DNA from: Cytophagaceae bacterium
GTDB taxonomy: Bacteria > Bacteroidota > Bacteroidia > Cytophagales > Spirosomataceae
DNA: 49,692 bases
Reading direction: 5' to 3'
Assembly: GCA_017984215.1 (NCBI GenBank)
Contig: JAGOAA010000014.1
Coordinates: forward strand, 1 to 49,692
In this document: positions 4,108-21,083 of the stretch, one piece after another
Position numbering within the stretch: position 1 is the stretch's first letter
Layout of the letters: every line of letters begins with the position of its first letter
The notes under the pieces: generated by a model
Databases searched by the model: none
Told to the model about the DNA's origin: nothing
What the model saw: the letters and a program-made list of their open reading frames with translations, nothing else
Made by a program: the position numbers and the translations under genes

Positions 4108-4181
4108 CTCCCTCTCCTGGGCTCGAACCAGGGACCCCATGATTAACAGTCATGTGCTCTAACCAACTGAGCTAAGAAGGA
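4108..4181 (-). tRNA. tRNA-Asn (anticodon GTT)
   Basis: A 74-base cloverleaf reads on the minus strand. The acceptor stem TCCTTCT pairs with AGAGGGA (one G-T pair) and the discriminator is G73. The D-arm begins GCTCAGTTGGTTAGAGC. The anticodon loop CTGTTAA contains GTT, and the T-arm is CCTGG-TTCGAGC-CCAGG. CCA is not encoded. The 3' end points left, towards the accessory region, and two short sequences like this 3' end occur at about 3380 and 555. Confidence 0.96.
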
Positions 4182-11554: not shown

Positions 11555-12025
11555 TTACTCCACCCTCGCCACCAACTCAAATCCCAAAGAATCAATCCGC
11601 AATCGAACTTCATGCCGATTTTTAATCCCCATCACTTCGGCCTTTTGGCCCTTTAAAGCACCCGCATCGATGGTAATGAAATCCCCCACTTGCAGGGCAT
11701 TTCCAAAGACTTCCACAGCCGCATGCTCCGATAAAAATTGTTGGATCGCCAGAATTTCATCGTCTTGAATGACGGCCGGCTTTTGTAACCAATAAACAAA
11801 ATTAACAACACCCAAGGTCCGACGAACCGTAGCACTTTGCTTGTCTAAATCAATGTTGACAAAAACATAGGAACGAAAAAGGGGTTCTTCGGTGACTTTA
11901 CGTCGGTCCGACCACTGTTTTTCGCGCTTATTCACGGGACAATAGGCTTCGATTCCTGCTTCTTTTAAGCGCAAGGCTACTTTTTTCTCCGTACGAGATT
12001 TCGTGTAAACTGCATACCAAGCCAT
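11555..12025 (-). CDS. UpxY-type NusG paralogue (transcription antiterminator)
   Basis: 156 residues with the NusG N-terminal domain (MAWYAVYTKSRTEKKVALRL, then EAYCPVNKR and PLFRSYVFVNID near 48-59) and a C-terminal KOW motif (VGDFITIDAGALKGQKAEVM near 114-133). Specialised NusG paralogues of this kind let RNA polymerase read through long capsule operons in Bacteroidota. The gene starts one base after the stop of the upstream UDP-sugar dehydrogenase, so it is the third gene of the gmd operon. This is odd: such regulators usually come first and are followed by the glycan genes they control. Here nothing but repeats and a toxin-antitoxin pair lies downstream. Confidence 0.88.
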   Translation of the reverse strand: MAWYAVYTKSRTEKKVALRLKEAGIEAYCPVNKREKQWSDRRKVTEEPLFRSYVFVNIDLDKQSATVRRTLGVVNFVYWLQKPAVIQDDEILAIQQFLSEHAAVEVFGNALQVGDFITIDAGALKGQKAEVMGIKNRHEVRLRIDSLGFELVARVE

Positions 12026-14454: not shown

Positions 14455-16230
14455 TTATTCATACAATGCCAAAATAGCCTTTTCGTGTTTGGCATAAATC
14501 GCCTTGCGCTTCAACTTCAGCGTAGGTGTAATTTCACCATCCTGCACCGTGAATAAACGAGGTAATAAAACAAATTTCTTCACCTGTTCGTATTTCGCGA
14601 CAGAACCCATCGTTGACATAACCTCTTCCTCCAACTTCCGGAAAACATCTTTATTGTTAATCAGCTCTTCTGGCGTGCCTACAGGAATTCCGTGTTGTTT
14701 ACACCAAACGCCTAAAGCTGCAAATTCTGGAATAATCAATGCCGAAGGGAATTTTTGACCTTCACCTACAACCATGCATTGTTCGATAAACGCCGATTCT
14801 TTTAATTTATTTTCCACCAACTGGGGAGCAACATATTTACCACCCGATGTTTTGAAAATTTCCTTTTTACGATCCGTGATCTTCAAATACTTTCCATCCA
14901 CCATTTCACCGATATCCCCGGTGTGGAACCAACCGTCTTTATCAACCGCCTCGGCAGTCGCTTCCGGATTATTGTAATAACCCACCATAACAGAATCACC
15001 TCGCACACAAATTTCTCCATCCTCAGCTATTTTCAATTCCATGCTATCGACCAAAGTTCCCACACAACCGATTCGGAAATCCGGCGGGTTTACTTGTGAA
15101 ACAGAAATAACAGGGGAGGTTTCCGTTAAGCCATAACCTTCACTTACCGGAACACCAGCTGCCCAAAAAACACGCGATAATCGCGGTTGGAGCGCCGCAG
15201 ATCCCGAAGCTATTAATCGTACATTTCCTCCCAAAGCTTCACGCCATTTGCTGAAAATCAATTTCCGATAAACGGCTAATTTCATCGAGTCTACAAATCC
15301 CAATTTAACCATCGGATCATACTGTAAGCCAAATTCAATAGCACCGAAAAAGAGCTTGCGTTTGATACCTGTCAATTCATTTCCTTTGGCCAAAATTTTG
15401 TCATAAACTTTCTCCAATAAACGAGGTACCGAAGCAAACATCGATGGCTTGACTTCTTTAATGTTATCCGCAATAGTATCCATACTTTCCGCATAATATA
15501 CAGAGACGCCATAGGACATGTACATGTAAATATCAGTACGCTCGTAAATATGACAAAGTGGTAAAAAACTCAACGCTCGATCCGTCGGATATAAATCAAA
15601 AAACTTACCACGAATCAAGGCTTTTACGTTCGAGACAATATTGTGATGTGTCAACATCACACCTTTAGGCCGGCCAGTTGTACCCGACGTATAAATCAAG
15701 GTTAATAAATCACTTGGCTTTACCGCATCCTGTAAGGGTTTCAAAGGTGACCGATCTTGACCAAAACCAGCATCCTTTACATCTGTCCACATATCTGCCC
15801 CTTCGACCGGATCAAATGTGAAGACCTTTTTAATTTTACGATTTCCCTTAGAAGCTTCTTTGGCTTTCAAGTACAATTCTTCTCCCTCAACAAACACATA
15901 CTTCACCTCCGCATTCTCAAAAATGAATGCATAATCTTCAACCGTAATGGTTGGATACATCGGCACCGAAACCGCACCAATCAATTGAATGGCAAAATCG
16001 ATGAAATTCCATTCGGGTCTGTTGCCTGAAATAATGGCAATTTTATCACCTGGCTTAATCTTCAAGGCCAAGAGTCCTAAAGCCACATCCTGGATTGTCT
16101 CCAAGGTTTCTTCAGAACTATATTTCCGCCATTCACCATTTCGCTTCAAACAGAAAAGATCTGATTTCTGAAGCTGATCATAAATAGGCAATAAATCAAA
16201 TACGCGGGTGAAATTGGAAAATTCAAGCAT
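14455..16230 (-). CDS. Long-chain fatty acid-CoA ligase (AMP-forming)
   Basis: 591 residues of the ANL adenylating superfamily. The P-loop-like motif LIYTSGTTGRPKGVMLTH lies near residues 177-194, the adenine-binding GYGLTETSPV near 367, and the hinge region GWFHTGDIGE and KITDRKKEIFKTSGGKYVAP near 430-470 holds the conserved Asp, Arg and catalytic Lys. No membrane segment is seen, so it is cytoplasmic or peripheral. It activates fatty acids to acyl-CoA for breakdown or lipid synthesis. The gene stands alone, pointing away from the replication origin on its right. A TAACTTTG box (16257-16264, minus strand) lies 26 bases before the start and could be its -7 element. Confidence 0.92.
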   Translation of the reverse strand: MLEFSNFTRVFDLLPIYDQLQKSDLFCLKRNGEWRKYSSEETLETIQDVALGLLALKIKPGDKIAIISGNRPEWNFIDFAIQLIGAVSVPMYPTITVEDYAFIFENAEVKYVFVEGEELYLKAKEASKGNRKIKKVFTFDPVEGADMWTDVKDAGFGQDRSPLKPLQDAVKPSDLLTLIYTSGTTGRPKGVMLTHHNIVSNVKALIRGKFFDLYPTDRALSFLPLCHIYERTDIYMYMSYGVSVYYAESMDTIADNIKEVKPSMFASVPRLLEKVYDKILAKGNELTGIKRKLFFGAIEFGLQYDPMVKLGFVDSMKLAVYRKLIFSKWREALGGNVRLIASGSAALQPRLSRVFWAAGVPVSEGYGLTETSPVISVSQVNPPDFRIGCVGTLVDSMELKIAEDGEICVRGDSVMVGYYNNPEATAEAVDKDGWFHTGDIGEMVDGKYLKITDRKKEIFKTSGGKYVAPQLVENKLKESAFIEQCMVVGEGQKFPSALIIPEFAALGVWCKQHGIPVGTPEELINNKDVFRKLEEEVMSTMGSVAKYEQVKKFVLLPRLFTVQDGEITPTLKLKRKAIYAKHEKAILALYE

Positions 16231-16319: not shown

Positions 16320-16740
16320 TTTGTCCACAAGTTATCCACAATGAGGGGGGTATTAATATGCTATTTTATCTAAAAAATAATTTTATATTAAATAAAATAT
16401 CAAAAAAGCATTAAAAGTAGCACACCCCACCAGCGTAAATTCCTTTTTCTTCTTTTATCCACACATATAAATTAAAAAAAAAAAAACTTTTTAAAATCTT
16501 TTCTTTGTTTCTCTTTGTTGTTCTATGTGGATATGTTGATAAGTCTAAAATTGATTTGTAATACCCTATTAATCAGCACGATGCTATTTCAAATTCTTTT
16601 ATTCTTATGTGGATAAGATTTCTTGATCGCGTGGATAAGTATGGACTTATACACATTCTCCACAGGGTATGTTATTTTATCCACATTCGTCCACATAGAT
16701 TGTGGATAAAATGGGGGTTTATTGGGTACTTATCAACACA
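16320..16740. other. oriC: Chromosomal replication origin (oriC)
   Basis: Exact TTATNCACA DnaA boxes occur at 16332-16340, 16455-16463, 16647-16655 and 16677-16685 on the plus strand, and at 16608-16616 and 16701-16709 on the minus strand. One-mismatch boxes lie at 16321-16329, 16526-16534, 16534-16542, 16630-16638, 16656-16664 and 16730-16738. The densest cluster is 16600-16740. To its left, 16345-16500 is extremely AT-rich, with an A13 run (16474-16486), and fits a DNA-unwinding element. Gene direction diverges around the site overall, mnmG lies 2.5 kb away and two parS sites follow at 21.1 and 22.7 kb. The last box overlaps the end of the neighbouring gene. Confidence 0.93.
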
Positions 16741-18341
16741 TCTGTAATCTGGAAATTAGCCTTCAGTTTTATCTTTCCTGGGAAGAAATAAATCGCCTCC
16801 GGTTTTTCTTTCGTTTTAAAGTTGCCTAAATCCCAAACGCCGTTTCCGTTGCGATCCTCAATGGCACGTAACTCATATAAACCTGGTTCCACGTGTTGAA
16901 AAAGGAAGGAATTTAATCCAGTTTGTTGATAAGCTAAGACCTTCGTATCCGATTTGATTAATTGAAAAATATGTTTGCCTTCAGGCGATTTGATTTGACC
17001 TGAAATACTTCCATAATTTTCTAAATCTTGAAATTCAAACGACTGTGCAAAAGTTTGCGAGGAATCTTTTTCTACGCTCACAAACGCGTGTTTAGAAAAT
17101 TTCAAATCAAATTTCGTACGTAAGGGTAGATATGATTTTTGAATACTTAATTCATTGACAAAGCTATTCCAACGATAGGCCTCGTCTGGCAGTTGCATTT
17201 CTTCATCTGGGCCCGTTACAAATGATATGGCTTTCGTGTTGATTAAAGCTATTGGTTTAGGGAATTTGATAACGATTGAATCCTCGGGACTTAACAGGTG
17301 ATTGCTGGCTGGCAAAACTTCAATACGCAAGGGTGCATTAACGACTTTTTCCTTTTTATTCGGCTCACGGAATTTTAATTTTAAGGATAAGGTCGCAATC
17401 CGATTTAGGGAATCCGTTACGGTTGCCGTTATACGTACTGTATCTTGATGTTCCACGTTGCCTACATAGAAACGTAAATTACGATTCGACTCAATTTGAT
17501 ATGCCAACGTTTTTGGTTCGATATCAATTCGCTTTACACCTCTCGATAATTCATATAAGACGGTTTTTGCCGTGCTCGTCGTCTTACTGATTTTCAAAGG
17601 ATCTTGATTCTGTAGCGCGATTTTAAAATCCTGCGTTTGGCTTTTCGTTAAGTCAATGTAGTTTTCGGTGATGAAATCAACAGGCTCTTTATTCGAATTG
17701 TAGACCAAATTATTGTTGATATCATGAAATGCCGCCATGTAATATTTGCCAGCTGCAATATTCTCAATTTGGTAATTCCCAGAAGTATCTGTTTTGGTAA
17801 AGTAATAAGGCTTGGCTTGATCGATGCGCAGTGTATCGGTGAAGGGATATAGGCCAACCAAAATCGATTCAAGTTTTTTATTTGTCTCCAAATGCTTCAC
17901 TTGGCCGCTGATTTGCAAGGAATCTATGTCGGAGCCAGAACTAAATACAAGCTTAATATTTTTACCAATATTACGTTCCGACATATCTTCAATCGCATTT
18001 CTAAAATTGAATGTGTAAGTCGTGTTTTGATGAAGCGTAGAATCTAATACCAAGGTTACACCCGTCGGGCGAATCCTTGTTTCATATGTTCCCACATTGG
18101 GAGTTATCAACAATTCTTGATTCAAATTTCGAATATTCACATATTCATTGAAATTCAGCTCAACTTTTTTGCCTGTATAGTTTTTGCTTTTGTTAAGCGG
18201 AATGCTGCTAACAATTTTAGGGGCCAAGGTATCTTTCTTCCCGCCTGGAGGACTTGCCGTTTGTGCACAGCGCTGGAACATGCTCAAACTAAGGAACAGG
18301 ATAAATGTAGCGAATGCGAGTTTGTGCAAGAATTTAGGCAT
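16719..18341 (-). CDS. Probable lipoprotein with bacterial Ig-like domain (SbsA-Ig type)
   Basis: 540 residues from the ATG ending at 18341. An earlier ATG at 18392 would lie well inside the upstream methyltransferase gene. The N-terminus MPKFLHKLAFATFILFLSLSMFQRC is a signal sequence ending in Cys, followed by QTASPPGGKKDTLAPK. The C-x-Q-x-PxGGxKD pattern before DTLAPKIVSS is typical of Bacteroidota lipoproteins, though the residues before Cys (FQR) are a poor lipobox. An Ig-like domain begins at about residue 40 (PLNKSKNYTGKKVELNFNEYV), and a carboxypeptidase-regulatory-like stretch (DTSGNYQIENIAAGKYYMAAFHD) lies near 200. Function is unknown, and it is probably anchored at the cell surface or periplasm. 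It overlaps the methyltransferase gene by 8 bases and ends inside the oriC DnaA-box cluster. Confidence 0.8.
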   Translation of the reverse strand: MPKFLHKLAFATFILFLSLSMFQRCAQTASPPGGKKDTLAPKIVSSIPLNKSKNYTGKKVELNFNEYVNIRNLNQELLITPNVGTYETRIRPTGVTLVLDSTLHQNTTYTFNFRNAIEDMSERNIGKNIKLVFSSGSDIDSLQISGQVKHLETNKKLESILVGLYPFTDTLRIDQAKPYYFTKTDTSGNYQIENIAAGKYYMAAFHDINNNLVYNSNKEPVDFITENYIDLTKSQTQDFKIALQNQDPLKISKTTSTAKTVLYELSRGVKRIDIEPKTLAYQIESNRNLRFYVGNVEHQDTVRITATVTDSLNRIATLSLKLKFREPNKKEKVVNAPLRIEVLPASNHLLSPEDSIVIKFPKPIALINTKAISFVTGPDEEMQLPDEAYRWNSFVNELSIQKSYLPLRTKFDLKFSKHAFVSVEKDSSQTFAQSFEFQDLENYGSISGQIKSPEGKHIFQLIKSDTKVLAYQQTGLNSFLFQHVEPGLYELRAIEDRNGNGVWDLGNFKTKEKPEAIYFFPGKIKLKANFQITDVLISTQ

Positions 18342-19218
18342 GTTCAAAAATATAGATATTACTTGAATAATTCCCAGTTTTAAAATAGGCAAGCATGTTC
18401 GACCAAAGACCTATGAAAAACGAGGCTACCAACTTTTTGCTCCCGGTCTTGTATTCATGACTCAAGAGCGCAATGTAAAAACTATCGAATAGCTGGCCGC
18501 GCTGTTTAGCTAATTTAAACCCATGGTTTTTTGCCAGGGATTGGATTGTCTCTGGATTGAAATGATAGATGTGGCGTGGAACATCGTAAGCCGCCCAAAA
18601 CTCCTTAAAATAAGCCGCATCAAAGGAATTCGAGTTTGGCAACGCGAGCAACAACTTCCCGTTCGGTGTGATGCGCTTTTTGAAGAAGTCGAAATAGGCG
18701 TCAATTTCATACACGTGTTCCAGAACATGCCACAAACTGATTAGTTCAAATTGCGGTTGATCTGGAATTGCCGTTAAATTTGGATAGATGTTTTGTCCTG
18801 TTAATGAAGCAGCACGTGCCGCCGTATCAGGATCTAATTCCATCCCAAAAGTATTCCACCCACGTTGCTGACATGCATGTAAAAAGTGTCCGTTTCCGCA
18901 ACCTATATCCAATAGGTTTTTTGTTCCTTGTTGGTCGCCTTGGATTAGATTCGTTTTTTGTTTTAACGTGATATTACGAACCGCATGGTAAAGTTTGTTG
19001 ATGAATCCTTTTTGCGTGTTGCTGTGCGAAATGTAGTTCTCTGATTTATAAAAATAGCCTGCTTGTTCTGCTTCGGGTCTTGGATTTGTAAACAACAAAT
19101 CACAAGCTGCGCATTGAACAATGTCAAATGTATTTTGAGATACCGTGTAATCCTTCGCCTGCAAAACACGTGTCATTTTTTGTCCTCCACACGCTGGACA
19201 GTTTTTCAGTGTTTCCAT
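18334..19218 (-). CDS. Class I SAM-dependent methyltransferase with N-terminal zinc ribbon
   Basis: 294 residues. Cys pairs C7-x2-C10 and C36-x2-C39 suggest an N-terminal zinc-binding knuckle. The SAM-binding motif LLDIGCGNGHFL is at residues 102-113, followed by the acidic residue in GMELD, and SLWHVLEHV serves as motif IV. This arrangement is common in sugar or small-molecule methyltransferases (Methyltransf_13/23 type) found near polysaccharide genes. The substrate is not known. It starts two bases after the mnmG stop codon and overlaps the next gene by 8 bases, so it is part of the yraN-ybeY-mnmG operon. Confidence 0.82.
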   Translation of the reverse strand: METLKNCPACGGQKMTRVLQAKDYTVSQNTFDIVQCAACDLLFTNPRPEAEQAGYFYKSENYISHSNTQKGFINKLYHAVRNITLKQKTNLIQGDQQGTKNLLDIGCGNGHFLHACQQRGWNTFGMELDPDTAARAASLTGQNIYPNLTAIPDQPQFELISLWHVLEHVYEIDAYFDFFKKRITPNGKLLLALPNSNSFDAAYFKEFWAAYDVPRHIYHFNPETIQSLAKNHGFKLAKQRGQLFDSFYIALLSHEYKTGSKKLVASFFIGLWSNMLAYFKTGNYSSNIYIFEHA

Positions 19219-19220
19219 AT

Positions 19221-21083
19221 TTAGCGACCCATGAATAAAAGTAAAATAGAAACGTCGGCGGCAGAAACGCCCGAGATTCGACTTGCCTGTCCGATCGTTT
19301 GTGGACGAATGGACTTCAGCTTGATCCGCGATTCTGTCGACAAGGTTTTAATTTTGTCATAATCGAAGTTGGCAGGAATCGCCAAATCTTCCATGCTCTT
19401 CATCTTGTTTACCATCAAGCGTTCTTTCTCGATATAGCTTTCGTACTTGACGATAATTTCGACTTGTTCAATTACTTCTTGTGAATAAGTTGCCTTAATG
19501 CTCTGGCCAATTTCGTGCTGAAGAATTTGCTCAAAACTTAAGTCGGAGCGCTTCAACAAATTGATCAGCGGAGCCCCCTCCTTCAGCGTCGCTGTCCCTT
19601 GGCTTTGCAACCAATCGTTTATTTCGGCAGGTTTTACTTTGGTCGTCTGTATGGTTTCAATTAACGCTGCGACCTGATCCTTCTTATTTAAATACGTATC
19701 CAAACGCTCTTGTGTTGCCAAGCCTAAGCCAAAGCCTTTTTCGGTTAGGCGTTCATCAGCATTGTCTTGTCTCAGCAAGGTTCTAAACTCTGCGCGTGAC
19801 GTAAACATACGATAAGGCTCATCCGTACCCTTGTTGATTAAATCGTCAATCAGAACCCCAATGTAAGCCTCCGATCTCGACAAAGTAAATGGCTCTTTCT
19901 TGTGTGCTTTTTGGTGCGCATTGATACCTGCCATTAAACCTTGGCAAGCCGCTTCCTCATAGCCTGTTGTACCGTTAATTTGTCCTGCAAAGTATAAACC
20001 CGAAACACGTTTGGTTTCCAAGGTCGCGTTCAATTGCGTCGGCGGGAAATAATCGTATTCAATGGCATAGCCTGGTCGGAACATTTTCGCATTTTCAAAA
20101 CCCGGGATCAACCGGATTGCTTCAAACTGTATGTCTTCGGGCAGGGAAGTCGAGAATCCATTCACATAAATTTCAACGGTATTCCAACCTTCGGGTTCAA
20201 CGAAAATTTGGTGCGAATCTTTGTCGGCAAAACGATTGATTTTATCTTCTACGGATGGGCAATAACGCGGACCCAATCCTTTGATGCGCCCCGCGAACAT
20301 GGGACTTCGATCAAAGCCTTTGCGTAAGACTTCGTGTACTTTTTCGTTCGTATGTGTAATCCAACAAGAGCGCTGTTCTTGAATGGCCGACTTGGATAAG
20401 TATGAAAATGAACTTGGGTTCTCATCGCCTTTTTGTTCTTCCATTTTGGAATAATCCAAACTACGACCGTCCACACGCGGGGGTGTTCCGGTCTTCATCC
20501 GACCCGCCTCAAATCCCAATTGGATCAGCTGTTCCGTGATACCTCCTGCCATGGGTTCGGCCATGCGCCCACCCCCAAATTGCTTTTCTCCAATGTGTAT
20601 CAATCCATTTAAAAATGTGCCGTTTGTTAACACGACCGTTGGCGCAAAATACTGCATACCTAAGCGGGTATTCACACCCTTTACTTCGTCGTTTTCAACA
20701 ATCAATCCTTCCACGGAGTCTTGCCAAAAATCGACATTGGCATTTTGTTCTAACGCCCAACGCCACTCTTCTGCAAATCGTGCTCTGTCCGACTGGCACC
20801 TTGGGGACCACATGGCTGGACCCTTCGAACGGTTTAACATGCGAAATTGAATCATCGTTTTGTCTGAAATAATTCCAGACATCCCGCCTAGTGCATCAAC
20901 CTCGCGAACGATTTGGCCCTTCGCCACACCCCCCATCGCTGGGTTGCATGACATCTGCGCAATCGTTTGCATGTTCATTGTAATCAGCAAAACCTTCGAG
21001 CCCATTTGTGCTGCTGCGTGTGCCGCTTCACAGCCCGCATGCCCCGCTCCTACTACGATTACATCATATGAATTCTGCATCAT
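19221..21083 (-). CDS. mnmG: tRNA uridine 5-carboxymethylaminomethyl modification enzyme MnmG (GidA)
   Basis: 620 residues, the full family length. It has an FAD-binding Rossmann motif [12 protein letters not shown] (residues 10-21), the downstream signature [20 protein letters not shown] near 46-65, [10 protein letters not shown] near 200 and [18 protein letters not shown] near 366. With MnmE it installs the cmnm5 group on wobble uridine 34 of several tRNAs. The start may be either of two consecutive ATG codons. The gene lies 2.5 kb from oriC, a placement seen widely in bacteria. A parS site occupies the 29-base gap to ybeY upstream. Confidence 0.97.

Follow-up and report, generated by a model that had tools for sequence, protein, structure and literature searches.

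The window analyzed here is a stretch of 49,692 bases, contig C23 of a draft genome (G000; 2.43 Mb in 70 contigs, 86.6% complete). Around the locus of interest the order is acyl-CoA ligase gene, a cluster of DnaA boxes, putative lipoprotein gene (with a Big_5 domain), methyltransferase gene, mnmG (gidA), and ybeY (Table 1). The original prediction, a replication origin at 16320-16740, described this setting well: the flanking genes are indeed an AMP-binding ligase and a Big_5-containing ORF that is a putative lipoprotein, and the nearby mnmG lies 2.5 kb from the cluster. Its appeal to gene direction stands in part, since the plus-strand share of ORF length is 15% to the left of position 16530 and 68% to the right, but the five right-hand genes between 16719 and 21971 read towards the predicted origin. 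Also near the origin, the window contains an UpxY-type antiterminator gene (11555-12025) beside nucleotide-sugar genes (a polysaccharide locus). A scan for promoters and terminators gave four promoter-like sites, where 3.5 are expected, and no terminator; the sole Rfam match at the gathering threshold is a tRNA at 4108.

Table 1. Features of the box cluster and its neighborhood (window positions).
Feature	Position	Strand	Evidence
AMP-binding acyl-CoA ligase-like gene, left neighbor	14455..16230	-	domain match
Predicted oriC: DnaA-box cluster and AT-rich unwinding region	16320..16740		boxes, skew, conservation, instability
Near DnaA box TTGTCCACA, first of left pair (11-bp period)	16321..16329	+	one-mismatch scan, alignment
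Exact DnaA box, second of left pair	16332..16340	+	exact scan, alignment
Least stable 50-bp duplex in whole window, candidate unwinding region	16351..16400		duplex stability
Exact DnaA box	16455..16463	+	exact scan, alignment
Least stable 100-bp duplex in window; contains best conserved intergenic columns	16463..16562		stability, alignment
A13 run	16474..16486	+	sequence
Conserved T-rich element adjoining central box pair; candidate single-strand DnaA contact	16488..16525	+	alignment
Near DnaA box ATATCCACA, central pair; in relatives TTATCCACA or nearly so	16526..16534	-	one-mismatch scan, alignment
Near DnaA box TTATCAACA, central pair	16534..16542	-	one-mismatch scan, alignment
Exact DnaA box	16608..16616	-	exact scan
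Near DnaA box	16630..16638	-	one-mismatch scan
Exact DnaA box TTATACACA	16647..16655	+	exact scan
Near DnaA box TTCTCCACA	16656..16664	+	one-mismatch scan
Exact DnaA box	16677..16685	+	exact scan
Exact DnaA box	16701..16709	-	exact scan
Putative lipoprotein gene with Big_5 domain, right neighbor	16719..18392	-	domain match; "lipoprotein" read from N-terminus
Near DnaA box within coding end of downstream ORF	16730..16738	+	one-mismatch scan, codon comparison
Methyltransferase gene	18334..19218	-	domain match
mnmG (gidA)	19221..21083	-	gene assignment

We counted as exact DnaA boxes all matches to TTATNCACA, the wider form; the narrower form, TTATCCACA, was scanned separately. The scan confirmed the six exact and six near boxes claimed within about 420 bases: six exact matches and six with one mismatch, all 12 in 16321-16738, with one further exact TTATNCACA in the rest of the window (at 19480, minus strand). 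Dinucleotide shuffles of the whole window have a mean of 1.9 exact matches, and the observed total of seven was reached in 1 of 100 shuffles; therefore the crowding of the boxes, not their total, is the striking part. The crowding goes beyond chance: the maximum in 200 windows simulated under a Markov-1 model was three boxes per 400 bp (in one window); when the 421-bp stretch was simulated 5000 times at its own dinucleotide composition, no run contained more than two, against the six observed.

The cluster has a G+C content of 0.292 (0.241 for 16341-16531) and contains the AT-rich stretch with an A13 run that had been described. Duplex stability, computed with nearest-neighbor energies, is lowest for the whole window inside the cluster, beside the boxes. 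We aligned 18 of the 25 genus genomes (the window's own included); in the other seven (G002, G003, G004, G009, G012, G014, and G015) the locus was cut, not found, or incomplete. The box positions are conserved across relatives in this alignment, and the best conserved intergenic windows are those of 16471-16550 (identity 0.78-0.84), compared with 0.05-0.69 for the remaining intergenic windows and 0.61-0.81 for the coding end from 16731 on. By eye, the T-rich end recurs next to the central box of Sandaracinomonas.

Two kinds of motif that might accompany such a core were examined. A DnaA-trio element was defined by at least three 3′-NAN-5′ motifs no more than 16 bp from a DnaA box, in a position that is conserved, and was scored by a scheme made for this analysis. 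Trio-like runs of three or more are present in the four genomes searched, at positions that vary between genomes, and none of these runs exceeds shuffled sequence (80-94% of 200 shuffles score as high). The strand rule for DnaA-trios agrees with the layout in T. maritima. A three-base rhythm of adenines seen by eye on the minus strand of the conserved core was rejected as a trio, since it lies on the wrong strand by the published rule (as set out in the relevant passages of PMC8287927). TTGT and TTATT motifs, known from E. coli (passages of PMC10316083), occur three or more times on the T-rich strand in 17 of the 18 genomes; these counts are barely above what composition gives (4-54% of composition shuffles reach the count, with only A. 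beregesia, G024, below 5%).

The box cluster is kept at the same place in relatives. We collected 62 loci around relatives of the lipoprotein gene and scanned 58 of them, leaving out L178, L180, L211, and L212 (partial matches). Thirty-one loci, whose lipoproteins share 57-89% identity with that of the window, are here called Aquirufa-type; six are from genomes named Aquirufa and the rest from MAGs labelled Cytophagaceae, Cytophagales, or Spirosoma fluviale. The relatives include A. nivalisilvae (G021), A. antheringensis (G020), A. rosea (G005), A. beregesia, and A. aurantiipilula (G018). Exact boxes were found within 700 bp 3′ of the lipoprotein gene in all 31 Aquirufa-type loci (6-12 boxes in 25 loci, and 2-3 in the six loci of clade C), and Sandaracinomonas has seven at the same place; the locus set and the genus-genome set share genomes and all relatives share descent, so that these counts are not independent. 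Among 26 more distant loci, three of which have less than 600 bp of sequence at the box site, Fibrella forsythiae and Fibrivirga have four exact boxes each, Fibrella rubiginis has one, and the other 23 have none.

The last boxes were said to run into the coding end of the lipoprotein gene and to constrain its 3′ end. All six exact boxes lie outside the ORF, and of the cluster's sites only the near match at 16730-16738 is inside it; here one codon supports the proposed constraint. All 31 Aquirufa-type genes (from related genomes, not 31 independent cases) use ATA for the Ile within this box, whereas ATA makes up 25% of the Ile codons in these genes (counted over 32 genes, Sandaracinomonas included). 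The preceding codon is TTG in 19 genes, TTA in one, and TGG in 11; in these 11 relatives TGG ATA forms an exact box, with Trp replacing Leu, an exchange that turns TTATCAACA into TTATCCACA. Sandaracinomonas has ATC at that Ile and has no box there. Only two of the 232 conserved-residue columns of the lipoprotein gene use a single codon throughout, the boxed Ile and column 8 (30 sequences and a gap), which is at the N-terminal end and presumably overlaps the preceding gene. Judged from codon usage, initiator boxes seem to fix coding DNA at the 3′ end of the lipoprotein gene.

A comparable overlap is found on the other side of the cluster in sister clades. Clades B and C have a TPR-like gene between the ligase gene and the origin, 503-505 codons long in its complete copies; the TPR assignment comes from one sub-threshold match, in one of two members scanned. 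The box aligned with that at 16455 overlaps the start codon of this gene (ATG TGG), and the left pair (16321/16332) aligns about 90 codons inside it; the alignment and the shared 11-bp period suggest that the window's left pair and the pair within this gene share ancestry. At the left pair, the C, G, and D columns of the gene are single-codon in 18 of 18 sequences and the V and L columns vary, with 17 of 185 scored columns single-codon over the gene as a whole; this is only suggestive of synonymous constraint. A homologue (32-35% identity) lies on the same side of the lipoprotein gene in four Fibrella/Fibrivirga loci. Among the genomes searched, some of them incomplete, the TPR-like gene is present in all three of clades B and C and in none of the seven of the window's type. 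The lipoprotein tree, which has long branches and was rooted at its midpoint, requires the full gene to have changed between present and absent three times, and well-supported branches force two of these changes; the gene has therefore likely been lost more than once. In G019 (L107, L156), an in-frame shortened TPR-like gene of 313 codons lies beside the origin, with the box-bearing 5′ part kept.

Adjacency to dnaA, a common but not obligatory property of origins, was not found, as the original prediction had said. In the genome of the window dnaA is on another contig (C65), where the 18.9 kb examined contain no exact box, and it lies away from the locus in five of five relatives, in four of them on another contig. 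The fifth, G007, is the sole single-contig genome among those examined; its 2.505-Mb sequence has dnaA at position 65 and the boxes at 1.2416-1.2420 Mb, about 1.24 Mb apart. Since G007 is numbered from dnaA, its numbering starts about half a chromosome from the predicted origin, and coverage-based estimates of replication rate that trust dnaA numbering would be centered wrongly.

Strand composition changes sign at or near the boxes. Third-position skew on the plus strand of the window is -0.235 before 16530 and +0.180 after. A minimum of cumulative GC skew had been expected within a few kb of 16.5 kb; within the window, a steep fall ends at the cluster, but the curve drops slightly further to a minimum about 6 kb away (at about 22 kb) before turning up, and the gene-by-gene sum behaves similarly, at -471 at 16.2 kb and a slightly lower -508 at 22.7 kb before rising. 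In A. nivalisilvae (C17, 779 kb), third-position skew is negative in seven of seven stretches left of the locus and positive in four of four on the right (the last only +0.027); in G016 (C8, 611 kb) it is negative in six of six and positive in three of three. In both genomes skew is close to zero in the stretch that contains the locus, and the turn is resolved to the 20-35 kb of the samples. The pattern is weaker in A. antheringensis (C2), with five of six stretches negative on the left and values near zero on the right, only two of five above it; there is no clear turn in G013 (C3). For G007, raw GC skew in 20 stretches was too noisy and third-position skew was used instead, with an ambiguous result: it is mostly positive for about 1 Mb to the right of the locus and mixed on the left. 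This genome shows another negative-to-positive change near 0.23 Mb, where no TTATCCACA cluster was found in the list of places or in the stretches sampled on either side, and a block of reversed skew at about 0.23-0.85 Mb, which suggests a large inversion or an assembly error.

The genome of the window has one other dense cluster of TTATCCACA, all 48 places considered: four exact boxes within 75 bp (C4:49442-49516), in the order GAPDH, DapD, CvfB-like, and HTH genes, boxes, PRA-PH-type pyrophosphohydrolase, response regulator, and histidine kinase. The gene junction is identical in five of five genomes examined (L002:9443-9517; L110, L111, L112, and L052), and by eye two boxes stand head to head in four of the five. 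On a further contig (C27:74288-74464), three exact TTATNCACA boxes occur within 177 bp.

Crowded boxes could in principle have causes other than an origin at this locus. Their accumulation by chance in AT-rich intergenic DNA is favored by the base composition of the stretch, but the simulations with that same composition fall well short of the observed count and the box positions are kept in relatives; conservation refutes chance, and we give this explanation a negligible probability. A stronger box cluster elsewhere in the chromosome had been named as an outcome that would speak against the predicted origin, and the C4 cluster, denser per base and with a conserved gene junction, is a candidate for one. 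At C4, however, positive skew gives way to values of about zero or slightly below, the opposite of an origin, and therefore we do not take it as an origin. The equivalent site in A. nivalisilvae (686 kb of C11) lies within negative skew, about 90-250 kb beyond the point, at roughly 0.44-0.6 Mb, where skew turns from positive to negative, and that of G007 (2.135 Mb) lies within positive skew; that C4 is the real origin is very improbable. It could be a site that regulates or titrates DnaA, or a DnaA-controlled promoter.

The same functions might be proposed for the cluster at 16320-16740, as a titrating or regulating site (like E. coli datA or DARS) or a DnaA-controlled promoter, in which case replication would start elsewhere; dense boxes alone make no origin, and C4 is a conserved dense cluster off any skew minimum. 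Against this explanation, skew changes from negative to positive within about 6 kb of the cluster in the window and within the sampling resolution in A. nivalisilvae and G016, an unstable AT-rich core lies between the boxes, and none of the other places listed (100 of 133 for TTATNCACA) or sampled combines a cluster with such a change; we consider it improbable, though less so than an origin at C4. The crowding of the boxes, the turn in skew, the conservation across the Aquirufa-type loci, the least stable duplexes inside the cluster, and the proximity of mnmG together lead us to conclude, with little doubt, that 16320-16740 is the chromosomal oriC of an Aquirufa-like bacterium (Cytophagales), at which DnaA is predicted to bind. 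The checks named with the original prediction mostly favor it. The points that weigh against oriC are the weak or mixed skew in A. antheringensis, G013, and G007, the position of the window's skew minimum off the boxes, the few exact boxes in clade C (six of 31 loci), the lack of trios above shuffles in four genomes, and TTGT/TTATT counts hardly above composition.

As an origin, the locus might work as follows. DnaA would bind the box array, coating the right-hand boxes (16608-16738) and the central pair, and the right-hand array would load the DnaA oligomer. The left pair and the central pair enclose or adjoin the two unstable stretches. The duplex would open in this AT-rich middle, with the conserved A-tract and T-rich element as the likeliest site, and helicase loading would follow. 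DnaA may contact the T-rich strand, in an arrangement most like that of E. coli (T-rich strand, then TGTGGATAA). A broader proposal, for and against which we see about equal weight, is that this origin is written into coding DNA: the outermost right box would fix codons of the lipoprotein gene; the left pair and one core box, which in sister clades fall within the opening 100 codons and on the start codon of the TPR-like gene, would mark a gene that the window's lineage and others have lost while keeping the pair; and the second, terminus-side site may tune DnaA activity.

A search of a library of papers returned nothing combining Aquirufa with oriC, nothing joining Bacteroidota, replication origin, and DnaA boxes, and nothing joining "DnaA-reactivating sequence" and Bacteroidetes; papers that pair Bacteroidetes or Cytophaga with oriC were returned, PMC2768785 among them. 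A testable origin is now proposed for a freshwater genus, with two side results: initiator boxes that seem to fix coding DNA, and a second DnaA-box site, conserved and on the terminus side. The former looks like a natural example of an initiator-binding array that constrains codon choice in its neighbor and outlives the loss of a gene which, in relatives, carries part of the array.

Within the Bacteroidota, the origin of Blattabacterium was likewise placed by a negative-to-positive skew change and not by dnaA; according to the passages of PMC2768785 that treat it, its genome is without dnaA and DnaA boxes were not detected there, unlike here. The basal unwinding system of B. subtilis (DnaA boxes and DnaA-trios, as outlined in parts of PMC8287927 and PMC6669920) likewise has tandem boxes beside an AT-rich region, but our locus has no trio run at a conserved place. 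Closer is the gidA-linked oriC of Yersinia and E. coli, located between gidA and mioC (in the section concerned of PMC10225481). There too the DnaA boxes cluster near mnmG and at a distance from dnaA, but at our locus the methyltransferase and putative lipoprotein genes separate mnmG from the origin, the left neighbor is an acyl-CoA ligase gene, and a box enters the coding sequence of the lipoprotein gene, as boxes of sister clades also do on the opposite side. In E. coli oriC, a T-rich strand runs into a TGTGGATAA box. The T-rich strand described here, with its putative single-strand contact, resembles this layout more than the trio type of B. subtilis. The locus is very probably an oriC of an ordinary kind, in an unusual place far from dnaA.
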